Origin: Sutcliffiella sp. FSL R7-0096
Lineage (GTDB): Bacteria > Bacillota > Bacilli > Bacillales > Bacillaceae_I
DNA: 64,000 nt
Assembly: GCF_038595065.1 (NCBI RefSeq)
Contig: NZ_CP152003.1
Span: 4,196,001-4,260,000 of the forward strand
Direction of reading: 5' to 3'
Shown: positions 10,823 to 46,329 of the stretch, one piece after another
Layout of the letters: each line of letters starts with the position of its first letter
How positions within the stretch are numbered: the stretch's first letter is position 1
The notes under the pieces: model-generated
The model's input: only the letters and a program-made list of their open reading frames with translations
The model's database searches: none
What the model was told of the DNA's origin: nothing
Program-made: the position numbers and the translations under genes

Positions 10823-11288
10823 CACGTCAGAACATCCTTTCATTCACATGTATTTATAGTATGCAACTTTTAGTTAAATATCAGATATGATTAGTCCGAA
10901 AAGAACATTTTACCATAATGGAGTGGGAATAGCTTTTATTACGGTTAGGTTGACTTTTATTCGCAAAGCCGTAGACGTTTACGGGGGTACAAAAGGAAGA
11001 TGTATGTAAAATGAATGTTAAGTAGTAGAAAATCGACAAAAATAATGTTTTTCTTTTTTTGAAAAAACCCTCACAAATAGTGCTTTTTACTATTCAAATA
11101 CAGCTAATCAATTCCTTAAATTCGTATTTAAACAACATTCTTTTCTAAAATCATTTTTTTAAAATAATATAAGCCGTTCGACATTTATCTGCAACATTCC
11201 ATATTTAGTTAATTTATAATAAATTCAGGGTATAGCAAGGACAAAGGTAGTAATACAAAAGTTGTATATCGAATGATTCGAAACAACA
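10823..11288 (+). other. AT-rich intergenic region before the riboswitch
   Basis: About 465 bp without a convincing gene. It contains A/T tracts and TATAAT at 11215-11220, which lies at a suitable distance to start the riboswitch transcript, but no good -35 precedes it, so another sigma factor or an activator is possible. One AAAGAAC half site near 10899 is unpaired. Confidence 0.5.
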
Positions 11289-11405
11289 GTAAAAGGCAAA
11301 CTTGCTGAAAGGCAAGGACGCAAAGTCAACAGATCTAAGATTGTGTAAAAGAGAAACATCCTTTTACGAATTAAGATGGCTGGGCTGCCTGAAATACCAA
11401 AGTAT
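11289..11405 (+). ncRNA. Cyclic-di-GMP-I (GEMM-I) riboswitch
   Basis: The conserved blocks of the class are present in order: AAAGGCAAAC, a hairpin CTTGC-TGAAA-GGCAAG, GGACGCAAAG, ATCTAAGATT, a variable hairpin (GTAAAAG/CTTTTAC), and GATGGCTGGGCTGCC, whose GGGCTGCC end re-pairs with the initial GGCA. About 20 nt later comes AGGAGGG, the ribosome binding site of the SinI-like gene, with a small hairpin AAATAC-CAAA-GTATTT between. This suggests control of translation, though ON or OFF sense cannot be read. Specificity for c-di-GMP rather than cGAMP is assumed from the class. Confidence 0.88.
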
Positions 11406-11424
11406 TTTAGGAGGGAAAAGGATA

Positions 11425-11571
11425 ATGGAAAACATAACAATTAAAATGACGGAAAATTTAGATAAGGAGTGGGTGGATCTAATTACAAACGCATTGAACA
11501 TGGGTATTTCCTCCGCAGAAATTAGAGATTTCTTACATAATTATCGCAATCATACTTCATTTAAGCTCTAA
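11425..11571 (+). CDS. SinI-like antirepressor
   Basis: Small protein of 48 residues. Its core LDKEWVDLITNALNMGISSAEIRDFL matches the SinR-binding helix-turn-helix hook of SinI (LDxEWVxLxxxAxxxxISxxEIRxFL). SinI proteins bind SinR and break its DNA-bound form, derepressing biofilm genes. ATG 11425 follows GGAGGGAAAAGG. It directly follows a c-di-GMP-I riboswitch and precedes a SinR-like gene by 88 bp, the sinI-sinR order of B. subtilis. The riboswitch suggests that c-di-GMP sets the amount of this antirepressor; that is inference. Confidence 0.85.
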   Translation: MENITIKMTENLDKEWVDLITNALNMGISSAEIRDFLHNYRNHTSFKL

Positions 11572-11659
11572 TTTTGTGAATATTTACGTATTTTCGTTCT
11601 AAATATCTAACAATCCCTTCGTTATATGCTATAATAAGCATGATAGGAAGGTGAAAGCC

Positions 11660-11998
11660 ATGATTGGTGAACGAATTAAAAAATTTAGGGAACAACGAAA
11701 AATGTCCATGTCAGAATTAGCAGAACGTGCCGGCGTGGCCAAATCATACCTAAGCTCGATAGAACGGAATTTGCAATCCAACCCATCCGTTCAATTTCTT
11801 GAAAAAGTCTCATCTGTACTTGGAGTCAGCGTTAATTCCCTCCTCCACGATGAAGACGAAACCCATGCAAAAGAAAACCTTGACCGGGAATGGGCCACCC
11901 TTGTAAGAGAGGCAATGGACTCCGGTGTGACGAAAGAACAATTCAAAGATTTTTTGGAATTCAATAAATGGAAAATAAATCAGGATACAAAGAAGTAA
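11660..11998 (+). CDS. SinR-like transcriptional repressor
   Basis: Protein of 112 residues, as in SinR (111). Residues about 1-65 are an XRE/Cro-type helix-turn-helix (IGERIKKFREQRKMSMSELAERAGVAKSYLSSIERN), with the SinR signature KSYLSSIERN...NPSVQFLEKVS. Residues about 75-105 are the SinI/SinR dimerisation hook (LDREWATLVREAMDSGVTKEQFKDFLEF). ATG 11660 was chosen over GTG 11651 because GGAAGGTGAA fits as ribosome binding site. A TATAAT at 11630-11635 suggests its own promoter. Predicted targets are the GTTCTTTATAAAGAAC sites in this window. It ends in a strong terminator. Confidence 0.88.
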   Translation: MIGERIKKFREQRKMSMSELAERAGVAKSYLSSIERNLQSNPSVQFLEKVSSVLGVSVNSLLHDEDETHAKENLDREWATLVREAMDSGVTKEQFKDFLEFNKWKINQDTKK

Positions 11999-19843: not shown

Positions 19844-21757
19844 TTATCCTTGTTTCTGTAAGAAACGATACAAAATAAGGCTTCTGGTTAAGATTTTAAA
19901 GTCGTTCTCTATGACCATTTCTTGTCTTGGCATATCGCCTAAGTTTGAAATTGCTTGTTTTATTATTTTAGTATCGATTAATTCAGATAGCATGGAGTCA
20001 TTGCTCATCTTCTTCAACTCTTGCTTGAAACTTCCCCAATCCTTTTTCATACGGTGGATCACATCTGCTCCTTGAAGCCCTCTATGGTCTTGGTTTAAAC
20101 GTACTTTATCAGGCAATTTGTTCTTTGTAGCCCTTCTTAAAAACGAACGCTCAAGCCCGCCTAATACATATTGTTCTTTTGGGAGGGAAAGACAGAACTT
20201 AATCACCCGAAGATCATTGGTAGGATCACGGTCCCAAACACCATAACGTAATGAAAGTTTGGTATTTGCTACACCACTTTTATTCCAAGGATATAACTGT
20301 CGATAATAGTCGTGGCGATATTGATCTAAGTCTTTTACTGACTCCCCCAATCCTTGCATTCCAAACTCTTGCAGTTTTTCATACACTTTAGTGCTCTTCG
20401 CAAGTTCAGGGTTGATAAAACTCGGAAAAGAATAACTTGGTTCCTTTTGTTTTGTTAGAAAAGCACGTAAGGCTGGATAGGTCCTCTTGGCCAAGAAAGG
20501 AAGCATCACTTTTTTTCCTGTTCGAAAACTTGTGCAAAAACTAGTTAACTCTTGATTTAATTGAATCCATTTCCATTGCTTAAGCAGAGTACTATAGTAA
20601 TCGTAATTTAATCTCATCGACCCCCATGAAATAGAATGATTCCCACGTGCTCCATTCAACATCACCGATATTCCTTGTTTCGCAGCTGCTTCGCTAATTC
20701 CTTTTAACCAAAACGTGTTTTCGAAAAACTTATACGGCATTTCCATAATGTCAAGGAACTCATCCACTTCAGACAAGGGGCTTGCCCCAGGGAAACTCAA
20801 ATAATTATCGTTAATATTTCCAACATGATTCACGGTTTCTTTTATAAATAGCCTTTCATCCGGCACATAATAATCAGATGTCCAGTCCTTAAAATCGCCT
20901 TCAGGAATATAACTAAATGTATGTAACGTCTTGTTCTCTTTTTTTAATTCATTAGCAGCAAAACTAACTACTGTTCCCGAATCTAGTCCTCCACTTAAAT
21001 GTGACCCAACCTTTCCGTTAGTTCTCAATCTATCTTTTACAGCCCGGCCAAACACTTCATGAAAAGCTTCTATATACTCTTCATTTGACGATAGCTTGAG
21101 CTCTTGATCAATGTTGATTGTGCAGTATCTCTTCAATTTCACTTCACCATTCGCAGTTACCGTGATACTGTGAGAAGGAGGGACTTGGTGAATAGAGTGA
21201 TAAACGGTGCTTGTCATATCTGCTGCTTCCACTAACGTTGGGATAGCAATAAACTCTGCTAGCCATGAATGGTTTAACTGCTTCTTATAGTTTGGTAGTG
21301 TCAGTAATGGCTTTATTAGAGTGGAAAAAGAAAAAATCTCTTTATCTTGATAATAGTAAAGGGTTCTTGAACCAGAAAAATCCCTTGCTCCAAAGAGTTT
21401 ATTCTTTTTTTCATCCCACAGCATAAATGCATAGTCTCCTATAAGATATTTGGGACAATCTTCTTCCCATTTGTCATAAGCTAATAAAATTAAATGGCTA
21501 TCTGAGATGGTTAATCTTTGTGAACCAGTTATTTCTAGTTGATTACATAATTCTTGTCTATTATCAATAATGGCGTCTGCTGTAATTGCTAGCTGTTTGT
21601 GAGAATCATAATATGGTAGGTTTTTTAGGTTGTAATACGGTGTAATTGGAAGAGGTTTGTAATTCTTCGATACATCGGGTTGAGTATAAGGAACAAAATC
21701 CAGTATGTTTCTTTGATCTTGTCGAAGCACTTTATAAACACCTAATATAATGCTCAT
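19844..21757 (-). CDS. Lasso cyclase 1 (asparagine synthetase-like C protein)
   Basis: AsnB homologue of 637 residues that activates the side-chain carboxylate of the core and closes the macrolactam. The N-terminal GATase-like half lacks the catalytic Cys2 (MSIILGVYKVL), as in lasso cyclases. The synthetase half shows the PP-loop GSHLSGGLDSGTV and late motifs LRYGVWDRDPTNDLRVIKF and PDKVRLNQDHRGLQGAD. ATG 21757 was chosen because GGAGGATAAA precedes it. It is clearly paralogous to cyclase 2. Two SinR-type palindromes lie in its leader. Confidence 0.88.
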   Translation of the reverse strand: MSIILGVYKVLRQDQRNILDFVPYTQPDVSKNYKPLPITPYYNLKNLPYYDSHKQLAITADAIIDNRQELCNQLEITGSQRLTISDSHLILLAYDKWEEDCPKYLIGDYAFMLWDEKKNKLFGARDFSGSRTLYYYQDKEIFSFSTLIKPLLTLPNYKKQLNHSWLAEFIAIPTLVEAADMTSTVYHSIHQVPPSHSITVTANGEVKLKRYCTINIDQELKLSSNEEYIEAFHEVFGRAVKDRLRTNGKVGSHLSGGLDSGTVVSFAANELKKENKTLHTFSYIPEGDFKDWTSDYYVPDERLFIKETVNHVGNINDNYLSFPGASPLSEVDEFLDIMEMPYKFFENTFWLKGISEAAAKQGISVMLNGARGNHSISWGSMRLNYDYYSTLLKQWKWIQLNQELTSFCTSFRTGKKVMLPFLAKRTYPALRAFLTKQKEPSYSFPSFINPELAKSTKVYEKLQEFGMQGLGESVKDLDQYRHDYYRQLYPWNKSGVANTKLSLRYGVWDRDPTNDLRVIKFCLSLPKEQYVLGGLERSFLRRATKNKLPDKVRLNQDHRGLQGADVIHRMKKDWGSFKQELKKMSNDSMLSELIDTKIIKQAISNLGDMPRQEMVIENDFKILTRSLILYRFLQKQG

Positions 21758-21785
21758 TTTATCCTCCATTACTAACAAGAATTTT

Positions 21786-21801
21786 GTTCTTTATAAAGAA
21801 C
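21786..21801. promoter_or_regulatory. SinR-type operator palindrome, lasso unit 1 (proximal)
   Basis: Perfect GTTCTTTATAAAGAAC: two SinR half sites (GTTCTYT) inverted with a 2-bp spacer. It lies 28 bp upstream of the cyclase 1 start codon and 80 bp from an identical site. Confidence 0.75.
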
Positions 21802-21865: not shown

Positions 21866-21881
21866 GTTCTTTATAAAGAAC
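21866..21881. promoter_or_regulatory. SinR-type operator palindrome, lasso unit 1 (distal)
   Basis: Second perfect GTTCTTTATAAAGAAC, about 15 bp downstream of the proposed -10, so covering roughly +8 to +23 of the transcript start. Two identical sites 80 bp apart could allow repressor looping. Confidence 0.75.
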
Positions 21882-22405: not shown

Positions 22406-24337
22406 TCAAATATATTTCTTCAAGAATCTATAAGTAATTAAACTTCTCATTAATAATACAAAATCTAAATTAAATACATTTTCAGGGCGGGGGTTATCTT
22501 TTAAACTAGCAGTCGTTTTTTCGATAAGGTCTGTGTTTAGATATTCCTTTACTAAAGGGTCTTTAATCAATGTTTCTAATTCGCAGATAAAATTCTTCCA
22601 TAAAGGAATCATTCTAAATAGACTGTCGCTACCTTGTATACCTCGAACACGCTGATTCAATCTTACTTTCTCAGGAAGTATACCCTTTGTCGCTCTTCTA
22701 ATTAATGATCTATCAAAACCATTTTGTACGAATTGGCTTTCTGGGATGGATAAGCAAAATTTAATAACTCTCAGATCATTTGTCGGATCACGATTCCACA
22801 ATTTATATCGCAACGATAATTTAGTATTTACTGTTCCGTTTGAGTTCCAAAATGTTACTTGTTCAAAACACTTTTTCCTAGCTTCATATGCATTTGGTGT
22901 CTTAAATTCAAGGGGCTCAATTCCATTTGAAATTAGTTTATGAAAGACTCCAGTCTGATTAGCAAAATCTTGATTTATTAACATAGGAATCTTGTAAGAA
23001 TCATGATGCTTACTAAATATAGCAGGATAAGCTTTATTCAATATCCTTGAGAAAATTCTAGACTTTTTGACACCAATATTTTTACTGTAAGCATCTAATT
23101 CTTTATAAAATAATAGGAACTTCCTCTGCTTTAATAACAATGTCTGGTAATCAAGGTATGGTCCCCAAGATATACTCCAGTTCCCTCTGGCTCCATTTAA
23201 TAAAGTACCTACACCATCTTGAAAAGCTTTTTCGTATACGCCTCTAATCCAAAATGAGTTATGAAAAAATTTATAGGGCATTTCATATGTTTCCAACCAG
23301 GTATCAATTTCTGTGTAGGGACAACTGTTTTCAAGCGCTAGGTAATTATCTTCTATATTGCCGACATATTGGACGGTTGAATGTATATAAGGTCTCTCAT
23401 CCGCAATTCTATGTTTTGGCGTCCACTGCTGAAAATCACTAGGTGGAATGTAACTATATGTATGCAGTCTTCTTCCTCGCCTTTTTAACTCTCGAGATGC
23501 ATAGCCAACAACAGATCCAGAATCCAACCCTCCACTTAATTGAGCACCTACATTACGATTAGTTCTTACTCTTGAATTTACTGCTGTTTGGAAAATTTCT
23601 ACAAATGCTTCTTCATACTCTTTGTTCGTTTTATATCTGATTCTTTCGTCGATATTGACTCTTGTAAACCTTGATAATTTCACCTGACCTTGTTTAACGA
23701 TTAAGGTATGTGATGGTGGAAGTTGCTTGATTCCTTGATAAATAGTGGTATTTGCTTCCACCGTTTCGAACATTTCAGGAATAGCTAAATATTCAGCCAG
23801 CCATGATTCATTTAATTTCTTTTTTATGTGAGGGAGGGTCAATAGGGGTTTAAGTGTTGTGCAAAAAGAGAAATATTCGGAATTTACATGATAATACAGC
23901 GTACGGGTACCAGAAAAATCACTTGCTCCAAAAATTTGATTTTTTGATTCATCCCAAATGATAAAAGCAAAATCTCCTACCAAATATTTTGGAGAATCTT
24001 CTCCCCATTTTTGGTAAGCCTCTATAATCAATTCGTCATCTGAAATTTCATCTCTTTTAAATAGGGGGATTTGCAATCTATCCAATAATTCCATTCTGTT
24101 GTCAATAATTGCATCTGCAGTTATTACTAATTTCATTTCTCTTTGATGAAAAGGATTCCGCTTACCAACTGATTCCGGTGTTATCCATTGCAAGTGGCAG
24201 CCTAAAAATACATTTTCATTCTTCCAGGTTTGAACATCATCCGCAGGAAAACTGCTGAATCCGCCCATTAGAGCCACACAGTGTTCAGGTGGAATATTAT
24301 TAGAATTGAAACTGAGTAAACCTGCAATCGCGCTCAT
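22406..24337 (-). CDS. Lasso cyclase 2 (asparagine synthetase-like C protein)
   Basis: AsnB-like cyclase of 643 residues paired with the paeninodin-like precursor. It starts MSAIAGLLSFN, lacking the GATase Cys2. PP-loop: GAQLSGGLDSGSV; late motifs LRYKLWNRDPTNDLRVIKF and PEKVRLNQRVRGIQG match cyclase 1. The two cyclases probably arose by duplication with their precursors. ATG 24337 follows GGAGGTACAT. It is transcribed from a promoter overlapped by two SinR-type palindromes and is divergent from the beta-helix gene. Confidence 0.9.
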   Translation of the reverse strand: MSAIAGLLSFNSNNIPPEHCVALMGGFSSFPADDVQTWKNENVFLGCHLQWITPESVGKRNPFHQREMKLVITADAIIDNRMELLDRLQIPLFKRDEISDDELIIEAYQKWGEDSPKYLVGDFAFIIWDESKNQIFGASDFSGTRTLYYHVNSEYFSFCTTLKPLLTLPHIKKKLNESWLAEYLAIPEMFETVEANTTIYQGIKQLPPSHTLIVKQGQVKLSRFTRVNIDERIRYKTNKEYEEAFVEIFQTAVNSRVRTNRNVGAQLSGGLDSGSVVGYASRELKRRGRRLHTYSYIPPSDFQQWTPKHRIADERPYIHSTVQYVGNIEDNYLALENSCPYTEIDTWLETYEMPYKFFHNSFWIRGVYEKAFQDGVGTLLNGARGNWSISWGPYLDYQTLLLKQRKFLLFYKELDAYSKNIGVKKSRIFSRILNKAYPAIFSKHHDSYKIPMLINQDFANQTGVFHKLISNGIEPLEFKTPNAYEARKKCFEQVTFWNSNGTVNTKLSLRYKLWNRDPTNDLRVIKFCLSIPESQFVQNGFDRSLIRRATKGILPEKVRLNQRVRGIQGSDSLFRMIPLWKNFICELETLIKDPLVKEYLNTDLIEKTTASLKDNPRPENVFNLDFVLLMRSLITYRFLKKYI

Positions 24338-24370
24338 ATGTACCTCCAAATTTCTGGCAGCAAATTAAAT

Positions 24371-24386
24371 GTTCTTTATAAAGAAC
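24371..24386. promoter_or_regulatory. SinR-type operator palindrome, lasso unit 2
   Basis: Perfect GTTCTTTATAAAGAAC overlapping the proposed -10 of the cyclase 2 promoter. Being in a divergent intergenic region, it could also affect the beta-helix gene at 24522. Confidence 0.75.
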
Positions 24387-43753: not shown

Positions 43754-43868
43754 TCTGGGCATTCAACCCACCCTCACACCACACTACCGACAACTTGTGT
43801 CTAAGGTTTTCACCCACAGCATGATCGAGTGCCTCCATTGATAACGGCAAGGAGACATCGCCGATATA
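43754..43868 (-). ncRNA. EAR-like eps-associated RNA (processive antitermination element)
   Basis: In B. subtilis the EAR element lies between the second and third eps genes and lets RNA polymerase read through terminators in the operon. Here the same position (epsB-epsC gap, 233 bp) has a GC-rich conserved-looking RNA with small hairpins on the minus strand: GGAGGCACTCGATC, GGGTGAAAACC, GACACAAGTTGTC and GGGTTGAATGCCC. Identification is by position, length and these hairpins; I cannot run the Rfam epsC model. Confidence 0.68.
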
Positions 43869-45354: not shown

Positions 45355-45383
45355 ATTATAGTTCATTATATAGAACGTGTCAA
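45355..45383 (-). promoter_or_regulatory. eps operon promoter with SinR-type operator in the spacer
   Basis: Exact consensus TTGACA (45383-45378), 17 bp and TATAAT (45360-45355). The spacer contains the palindrome GTTCTATATAATGAAC (45376-45361), which keeps the GTTC-N8-GAAC outer arms of the SinR-type sites. A repressor bound here would block RNA polymerase directly. A GTTCTC half site lies downstream near 45317-45322. Confidence 0.82.
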
Positions 45384-45400
45384 CGAACAAGTTTTATTTT

Positions 45401-45607
45401 TTATATCATCGTGTCGTATGAACTTTTTACTATATTCATTTTCAATTTTTTCTTTCCTACCATTTTTAATGGTGAATACATTACTGGTGATGCAAGAAAT
45501 TGTTTCTTATCTATTAAATCCTCCGCACAATTCGGGCATCTCGATTGATCTTGCTCAAAGCTGCTATACGACTTTTTTTTGCATCGGCTGCATAATTTCA
45601 TATACAT
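45401..45607 (-). CDS. Small zinc-ribbon protein upstream of eps
   Basis: A 68-residue protein with two CxxC pairs, LCSRCKKKSYSSFEQDQSRCPNC, followed by a basic tail with KKKLKM. The start may be ATG 45607 or 45601 behind AAAGGGG. It is read in the eps direction, ends 18 bp upstream of the eps -35, and its own upstream region holds SinR-type sites at 45661 and 45694. Function unknown; a small regulator or a co-expressed factor is possible. I recognise no B. subtilis counterpart. Confidence 0.55.
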   Translation of the reverse strand: MYMKLCSRCKKKSYSSFEQDQSRCPNCAEDLIDKKQFLASPVMYSPLKMVGKKKLKMNIVKSSYDTMI

Positions 45608-45660
45608 ATTTAAGGTTTCCCCTTTAATTATGAATTTTGAATAATAGTATATAACAAATC

Positions 45661-45676
45661 GTTCTTTATAGAAAAC
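45661..45676. promoter_or_regulatory. SinR-type operator upstream of the zinc-ribbon gene
   Basis: GTTCTTTATAGAAAAC: one perfect half site and one degenerate arm. It lies about 55 bp upstream of the zinc-ribbon start codon in the divergent control region. Confidence 0.55.
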
Positions 45677-45693
45677 ATCAAAAAAGTTTAAAA

Positions 45694-45709
45694 TTTCTTA
45701 ATAAAGAAC
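45694..45709. promoter_or_regulatory. SinR-type operator in the eps/slrR-like control region
   Basis: TTTCTTAATAAAGAAC, an inverted repeat with one perfect AAAGAAC arm. Distances to the neighbouring sites are 33 bp and 63 bp. Confidence 0.55.
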
Positions 45710-45821: not shown

Positions 45822-46202
45822 ATGATCGGGAAACGGATTAGGAAGCTAAGGAAGAGCAAAGGTTATTCACTAAGTGAGCTGGCCGAAAAAGCAGGCGTTT
45901 CAAAATCATATTTAAGTTATTTAGAACGTGATTTACAAACGAATCCATCATTACAATTTCTTCAAAAGATATCTGTGAGTTTAGGGACAAACATAGAATA
46001 CTTACTGGACGGTCAATCTACTAGTAAAATATCGGAACAGAGCAGATTTGTTATGGATGAGGAATGGAAGAAACTGATCCAGAAGGCCATTAGAGAAGGT
46101 ATGACAAAAGAGGATTTTATTAATTACCGGAGCTACCTTCAGTTTCAAAAGTGGCAATCATTTAATCGAAAAGATACCAAGGAGGAAGGCACAAGTGGTT
46201 GA
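45822..46202 (+). CDS. SinR/SlrR-like regulator divergent from eps
   Basis: Protein of 126 residues. Residues 1-65 are a SinR-type helix-turn-helix (IGKRIRKLRKSKGYSLSELAEKAGVSKSYLSYLERD, then NPSLQFLQKIS). Residues about 80-112 are a SinR-type hook (MDEEWKKLIQKAIREGMTKEDFINYRSYLQF). In B. subtilis slrR, a SinR paralogue, also lies next to epsA, so this is probably its positional counterpart. ATG 45822 follows AAGGAGACTACTG. It overlaps the SinI-like gene downstream by 8 bp. Confidence 0.85.
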   Translation: MIGKRIRKLRKSKGYSLSELAEKAGVSKSYLSYLERDLQTNPSLQFLQKISVSLGTNIEYLLDGQSTSKISEQSRFVMDEEWKKLIQKAIREGMTKEDFINYRSYLQFQKWQSFNRKDTKEEGTSG

Positions 46203-46329
46203 TACAGTAGATTTGGATTTGGAATGGGTTGAATTGATACTCGAAGCAAAAGATCTAGGAATAACGGATGAAGAAATTCGAAGGTTTTTTGAAGAGGTTA
46301 AGAAAGAAAATGTTATAACAAACAGATGA
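46195..46329 (+). CDS. SinI-like antirepressor translationally coupled to the SinR/SlrR-like gene
   Basis: A 44-residue protein starting at GTG 46195, behind AAGGAGG, and overlapping the regulator gene. It contains LDLEWVELILEAKDLGITDEEIRRFFEEV, the SinI hook. Its order, regulator then antagonist, is the reverse of the pair at 11425-11998 and of sinI-sinR in B. subtilis. The overlap should give matched amounts of both proteins. Confidence 0.8.
   Translation: MVDTVDLDLEWVELILEAKDLGITDEEIRRFFEEVKKENVITNR

Follow-up and report, generated by a model that had tools for sequence, protein, structure and literature searches.

In Bacillus subtilis, SinI is an antirepressor encoded before SinR, sinR has a separate promoter and Spo0A sites are found at sinI. 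Biofilm formation is unlocked by SinI, and a direct action of c-di-GMP on SinI/SinR control of the matrix is not known to have been established for B. subtilis. A locus of Sutcliffiella sp. FSL R7-0096 raises the question of whether this second messenger sets SinI production in its relatives and, if so, in which direction, at which level and alongside which other input. The locus resembles that of B. subtilis in gene order, in the separate sinR promoter and in having Spo0A-like sites at sinI. It lies in a stretch of 64,000 nucleotides (contig NZ_CP152003.1, positions 4,196,001 to 4,260,000), the whole of which is called the window and to which the coordinates below refer. The elements between aptamer and repressor are as follows.

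11285 to 11392, forward strand: c-di-GMP-I (GEMM-I) aptamer, by covariance match to RF01051
11287 to 11289, forward strand: 5' strand of P1, CAG, with its partner CUG at 11389-11391, by alignment and covariation
11388 to 11411, forward strand: hairpin CCUGAAAUAC-CAAA-GUAUUUUAGG hiding the Shine-Dalgarno (SD) sequence, by folding and covariation
11409 to 11415, forward strand: SD AGGAGGG of sinI, by sequence and alignment A1
11425 to 11571 (ATG to stop), forward strand: sinI, 48 aa, PF08671 at 43 bits (cut-off 31.4)
11607 to 11635, forward strand: separate sinR promoter, CTAACA-17-TATAAT, by consensus scan
11660 to 11998, forward strand: sinR, encoding a 112-aa ortholog of SinR from B. subtilis, HTH_3 at 61.8 bits and SinI domain at 46.6 bits

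A preliminary description had placed a GEMM-I riboswitch before the ribosome binding site of a sinI-like gene followed by a sinR-like gene, and had suggested a covariance search with RF01051. That search bears the arrangement out, as the match covers the full model (1-87) at 66.1 bits, well over the gathering score of 35 (E 1e-10; Rfam release 15), and is one of four Rfam families matched in the window. The aptamer lies directly 5' of the SD of sinI. With only two RF01051 matches in the 4.9 Mb genome, and the pairing with sinI seen in 16/16 genomes of the genus searched (the window's own counted), chance adjacency is very unlikely. In the Vc2 numbering, we take G11295, A11322 and C11388 to be the ligand contacts G20, A47 and C92. 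These were kept in 98, 100 and 100 of 100 rows, respectively, of alignment A2, in which the aptamer helices covary. A2 consists of 100 leaders with SinI behind them, most of which score highly with a model that contains the hairpin. RF03167 (c-di-GMP-I-GGC) is the best-scoring model for some relatives, although A47 is present throughout A2. We rejected it as a sign of an altered ligand, as G47 (consensus GACGCGAAG) occurs in none of the 100 rows (L210, an RF03167 match, lies outside them) and the window has A11322.

The protein behind the aptamer carries PF08671 as its sole Pfam family and has no DNA-binding domain, as expected of a SinI antirepressor. The open reading frame list also held an 89-aa frame from TTG 11302 through the riboswitch, which we discarded since the ATG behind the SD is the start conserved in relatives. 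SinR has the helix-turn-helix (HTH) and SinI-type domains of the repressor and matches B. subtilis SinR (1b0n chain A) end-to-end over residues 1-108 (E 1.9e-40); its nearest named relatives are from Bacillus sp. (92%) and three Sutcliffiella species (86-88%). In the 15 of 16 genus sequences aligned at the sinR promoter, TATAAT is found in 15/15 and CTAACA in 14/15 (CAAACA in L050). Since sinR has its own conserved promoter, the switch can alter the SinI:SinR ratio. The genome encodes five SinI domains altogether.

How binding might reach the gene is suggested by the bases which aptamer and hairpin have in common. The strand CCUGAAAUAC (11388-11397) pairs with GUAUUUUAGG (11402-11411), which buries AGG, the first three bases of the SD, together with the U run 5' of it. 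The base of this hairpin consists of C92 of the ligand pocket and the entire 3' strand of P1, and because bases 11388-11391 are needed by both, the bound aptamer and the SD hairpin are mutually exclusive. In the window, therefore, the expression platform is coupled to the aptamer through pocket and P1 alike. The hairpin is present in the ligand-free fold with a pair probability of 0.998, and its energy of -10.6 kcal/mol was equalled by none of 200 shuffles. In A2, 98.0% of its cells are paired and changes on both sides are seen in 7/10 pairs (16 cells), against a mean of 1.4 cells in shuffled controls (0/500 reach 16) and at most 5 pairs and 7 cells in slid registers. A structure-free alignment gave 7 pairs and 14 cells (maximum of 6 cells in 300 shuffles). 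The register slid by one gave 6 pairs and 12 cells there, and the case for the hairpin in that alignment thus rests on the cells paired, 96.6% compared with no more than 51.5% for slid registers. The first 26 sequences, in which the hairpin is nearly invariant, showed no covariation.

P1 and the aptamer covary in A2 much as the hairpin does. P1 is complete (3/3) in 87/100 rows and incomplete in 13, compared with 10% complete when the 5' segments are shuffled. Individual leaders illustrate the double constraint on the shared strand. In L160 this strand has changed and both partners follow (P1 UUG/CAA; hairpin CCAAU/AUUGG), in L058 and L129 a shared UUG is matched by a P1 strand CAA while the hairpin is kept via G-U, and in L172 the hairpin is rebuilt from other letters (CCUGUCAG/CUGAUAGG). 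In L059, P1 is retained (UCG/CGA) and the hairpin has two mismatches. Modelled openness of the SD rose from 0.35 in the free RNA to 0.69 with aptamer and P1 forced, increasing in 91 of 97 leaders (three of the 100 A2 rows have no SD matching the pattern), and from 0.40 to 0.81 in the window; the forced run presupposes the bound state and so tests geometry, not energy. Left unconstrained, the fold pairs CAGU with GCUG at 11384-11387 in place of P1. A pairing of the P3 loop ATCCTTTT (11358-11365) with the SD-ATG spacer AAAAGGAT (11416-11423) was also considered and set aside, as it is found in part of the genus only and P3 explains the letters.

The mutual exclusion of hairpin and P1, the gain in SD openness and the lack of any terminator-like site found by the scan of the + strand between aptamer and sinI lead us to propose that the riboswitch acts on translation and turns sinI ON. 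We give this a probability of roughly 77%, a figure that applies to the window and to those relatives that share its hairpin and does not extend to every c-di-GMP-I RNA before sinI. Without ligand, CCUGAAAUAC and GUAUUUUAGG would be paired and the first three SD bases hidden. Upon binding of c-di-GMP, C11388 would contact the ligand and C11389-U11390-G11391 would close P1 with C11287-A11288-G11289. Closure of P1 would open the base of the hairpin and free the SD, allowing SinI to be made. SinI would in turn titrate SinR, leading to derepression of matrix genes and probably of lasso-peptide genes. The earlier assignment of riboswitch class and target gene, and the suggestion that c-di-GMP sets SinI, thus find support in the covariance match, in the bases of the ligand pocket and in the covarying platform, and the ON direction is added here.

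Other readings of the same RNA differ in ligand, level or sign. An A at position 20 goes with cGAMP binding in GEMM-Ib RNAs, and L158 and L170, 2 of 100 sinI riboswitches, have A in place of G there. That the RNA of the window senses 3',3'-cGAMP instead of c-di-GMP is nevertheless highly improbable, as its position 20 is a G (G11295), like that of 98/100, and the genome encodes three GGDEF domains. Control of transcription or RNA stability would fit the terminator-like tails which were seen by eye at many of the 30 c-di-GMP-I loci of the first scan. We consider such control very unlikely at sinI given the result of the terminator scan and a hairpin that ends within the SD without a U tract. 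A reversed sign, with c-di-GMP reducing SinI translation, we regard as improbable. Both signs are known in Bacillus, the B. thuringiensis riboswitches being described as “off” before mcpA and “on” before cbpA in the part of that study concerned with them (PMC7793685), and ligand binding can leave the upper part of the hairpin stem in place. The bases that hide the SD are, however, the very ones needed by P1 and the ligand, and informal inspection noticed no second anti-SD formed upon binding.

If translation of sinI is switched ON by c-di-GMP, it may be asked what has become of Spo0A. The preliminary description had opposed the two inputs, with Spo0A-P controlling sinI in B. subtilis and a second messenger doing so here. 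Three elements upstream of the riboswitch bear on this.

11033 to 11041, reverse strand: the distal of two sites resembling the Spo0A box, TCGACAAAA (reverse complement TTTTGTCGA), by consensus and conservation
11177 to 11183, reverse strand: the proximal of the two, TTCGACA (reverse complement TGTCGAA), by consensus, invariant in 16/16 genus sequences
11215 to 11220, forward strand: -10 element TATAAT of the sinI promoter, invariant in 16/16 genus sequences

Both are putative sites, called by their likeness to the Spo0A box consensus. The TCGACA core of the distal site is invariant in 16/16 genus sequences and the AAAA next to it is found in 15 (GAAA in L052). Two conserved 0A-like sites thus lie at the promoter, as expected of one activated by Spo0A~P; no good -35 element is present at the usual distance from TATAAT 11215-11220, and the consensus scan missed this promoter. 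Outside the genus, a perfect TTCGACA/TGTCGAA occurs within 350 bp upstream in 35 of 96 loci, and hence is missing from the majority, compared with a mean of 3.2 (maximum 7) after shuffling and 9/96 in a downstream control. The count covers 96 of 97 SinI-positive loci, L177 having been left out as its upstream sequence was absent. Given the invariance of these sites and of TATAAT, and the excess of TTCGACA outside the genus, Spo0A control of sinI has probably been kept, and the either/or opposition is probably wrong. Transcription of the leader would probably still depend on Spo0A~P, and sinI would then act as an AND gate with Spo0A~P as one input and c-di-GMP as the other.

The arrangement reaches well beyond Sutcliffiella. 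When the window SinI was searched in 61 genomes, all of its 20 best relatives, which include those from the rest of the genus (15 genomes), had a c-di-GMP-I RNA on the same strand, directly before the gene in 19 (L055 has a weak match of 38.7 bits farther upstream). Among 12 further loci, c-di-GMP-I was found in seven (one being the window's own) and not in five. R1, a covariance model that spans aptamer and platform and was built from sinI cases, was run on 397 genomes of the order and matched in 341 at E 1e-5, a count that takes in c-di-GMP-I RNAs of other kinds. Among the matches listed (150; 107 examined, 15 of the genus and 7 others known with SinI, 21 left out), a SinI open reading frame was found just behind R1 in 97 of the 107 examined; two of these 107 belonged to the training set. 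As R1 was built from sinI cases, counting from the SinI side is fairer. There, 33 of 51 genomes of the order have a SinI domain, and of 53 stand-alone SinI domains (open frame of up to 96 aa) in the 51 genomes, 28 are preceded by a c-di-GMP-I RNA no more than 300 nt upstream, unlike the other 25; at least one such case occurs in 24 of the 51 genomes. In these counts the c-di-GMP-I position comes from R1 and not Rfam for G066 and G055:C12, and the SinI of G038 is below the Pfam cut-off.

By taxonomy, a c-di-GMP-sinI case was found in at least one genome of 33/47 families sampled, many of which are represented by one or few genomes. None of 14 control genomes, B. subtilis among them, has a c-di-GMP-I RNA, in which B. 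subtilis differs from the window. On named contigs, R1 matched at 36 of 78 loci with SinR, 27 times on the sinR strand and no more than 400 nt before the gene, in genera such as Sutcliffiella, Peribacillus, Metabacillus, Heyndrickxia, Oceanobacillus, Thalassobacillus and Gottfriedia. No match was seen at SinR loci of Halobacillus (0/9) or Brevibacillus (0/2), and the single one in Paenibacillus (1/16) is located behind sinR.

The platform is less uniform than the pairing of aptamer and gene. Of the 28 cases counted from the SinI side, no more than 15-17 have a strong SD hairpin, with 17 at -5 kcal/mol or better and 15 beating 95% of shuffles; in the remaining 11 to 13 it is weak or absent. In a larger set of 131 sinI leaders (A2 plus 30 further sources), 103 pair the pocket strand into the SD with an energy of -5 kcal/mol or better, and 95 are stronger than 95% of shuffles. 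That CC pairs with the SD was dropped as a general test of the platform, as such pairing is also seen in 90% of leaders with a shuffled middle. The 30 loci of the first scan hold the hairpin motif twice, in L035 (before sinI) and L017 (no SinI behind); L036 sits before sinI and has no motif. The strong SD-hairpin switch is, then, one common form of platform before sinI. Some eleven of the 28 cases have short leaders lacking a distinctive SD hairpin; leaders of this kind before sinI were noted in L197 (two copies), L214, L217, L202 and others, and extra riboswitch copies with a similar SD hairpin and no SinI frame found behind them in L150, L169, L174 and L182 (one genus; f39, g41). We put forward only tentatively, a little short of even odds, that Spo0A~P acting on the transcript together with c-di-GMP acting on SD release is the usual and possibly ancestral control of sinI in the order, with B. 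subtilis as an exception lacking the riboswitch and with the pocket base of a few species turned toward cGAMP. The limited share of strong SD hairpins on the SinI side makes such an order-wide AND gate less likely.

What the switch would govern is a separate matter, as a second SinR-SinI pair is encoded in the window. For the search of outputs, we took GTTCTTTATAAAGAAC as the putative SinR operator from the B. subtilis consensus.

21786 to 21801 and 21866 to 21881, no strand assigned: two perfect GTTCTTTATAAAGAAC palindromes before the asparagine-synthase gene 19844-21778, by pattern search
24371 to 24386, no strand assigned: one further perfect GTTCTTTATAAAGAAC palindrome, preceding the other asparagine-synthase gene (22406-24349), by pattern search
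45361, 45661 and 45694 (45361 to 45709), no strand assigned: three operator-like sites with two mismatches each, between eps and sinR2, by pattern search
45822 to 46202, forward strand: sinR2, 126 aa, without c-di-GMP-I, 46% identical to SinR1
46195 to 46329, forward strand: sinI2, 44 aa, GTG start, without riboswitch, overlapping the end of sinR2

The three perfect palindromes are the only ones in the genome, and the asparagine-synthase genes they precede have neighbors with transglutaminase-like and PqqD-like domains, as in a lasso-peptide cluster. With up to two mismatches, the genome has 14 sites compared with 6 for the pattern read backwards, and seven of the 14 lie inside the window (1.3% of the genome), three being perfect and four in or before eps genes. 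Another candidate operator pattern, AGTTCTTTNNNAGAAC, was not above chance, and TasA/camelysin (PF12389), looked for as a SinR target, had no match in the genome. A circuit from c-di-GMP to EPS and lasso peptide, as suggested in the preliminary description, is thus plausible, with putative SinR-type operators before lasso and eps genes that would link the switch to both. The lasso side has the perfect palindromes and the eps side weaker sites, next to a sinR2-sinI2 pair without a riboswitch.

This pair adjoins eps, and the acting repressor may be SinR1 or SinR2. It is a real possibility, if not a probable one, that the switch operates as proposed while eps and lasso genes are controlled by SinR2-SinI2 and SinR1 has other targets. 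The position of the pair argues for this, as does the identity between the two repressors, which is higher than the overall 46% in the HTH part. On the other hand, SinR1 is closer to B. subtilis SinR (1.9e-40 vs 4.8e-30), and SinI1 might act on both repressors. In sinR2-sinI2 (45822-46329) the gene order is reversed and the genes overlap. An epsC RNA (RF01735, 105.8 bits) lies within the eps genes at 43756-43863.

Parts of this picture have precedents. A “(c-di-GMP)-sinI” arrangement like that of the window is listed for Bacillus methanolicus MGA3 in Table 4 of a 2015 study under “control of biofilm formation” (PMC4342826, 2015). The entry concerns one genome, and its sentence and table line give no mechanism, sign, breadth or Spo0A link. 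Vc2 and, as far as its description goes, Bc1 of the B. cereus group share the aptamer class of the window and have target genes other than sinI (PMC11218506, for Bc1); the platform described for Bc1 consists of two terminators, whereas that of the window is an SD hairpin sharing bases with P1. In Paenibacillus, a c-di-GMP-I RNA antisense to a SinR-like gene has been predicted and proposed, in the section concerned, to affect SinR function (PMC9943018), while that of the window is in sense orientation and on the antirepressor gene. In B. thuringiensis, sinI expression goes up with raised c-di-GMP, and the passage reporting this names no riboswitch for sinI (PMC7793685). Our full-text searches of open-access literature on c-di-GMP together with SinI/SinR or related terms showed no report of the breadth of c-di-GMP-sinI, an ON platform or dual control. 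The aptamer class and target family are thus already known and the arrangement has been tabulated once; the platform and the reach are newly described.

If the ON reading is correct, a second messenger acts on the antirepressor deciding matrix production in many families of the order, and what is seen in B. subtilis may be a poor guide to the role of c-di-GMP in the biofilms of its relatives. The reading also yields a signed and easily tested prediction, namely that c-di-GMP turns on production of SinI. The second c-di-GMP-I RNA of the genome (L002 1501-1594; C1:4509324-4509417 of the genome) precedes a 58-aa open reading frame without known function (L002 1636-1812), and an ACCTCC in this region could pair with the SD GGAGGT of that frame.
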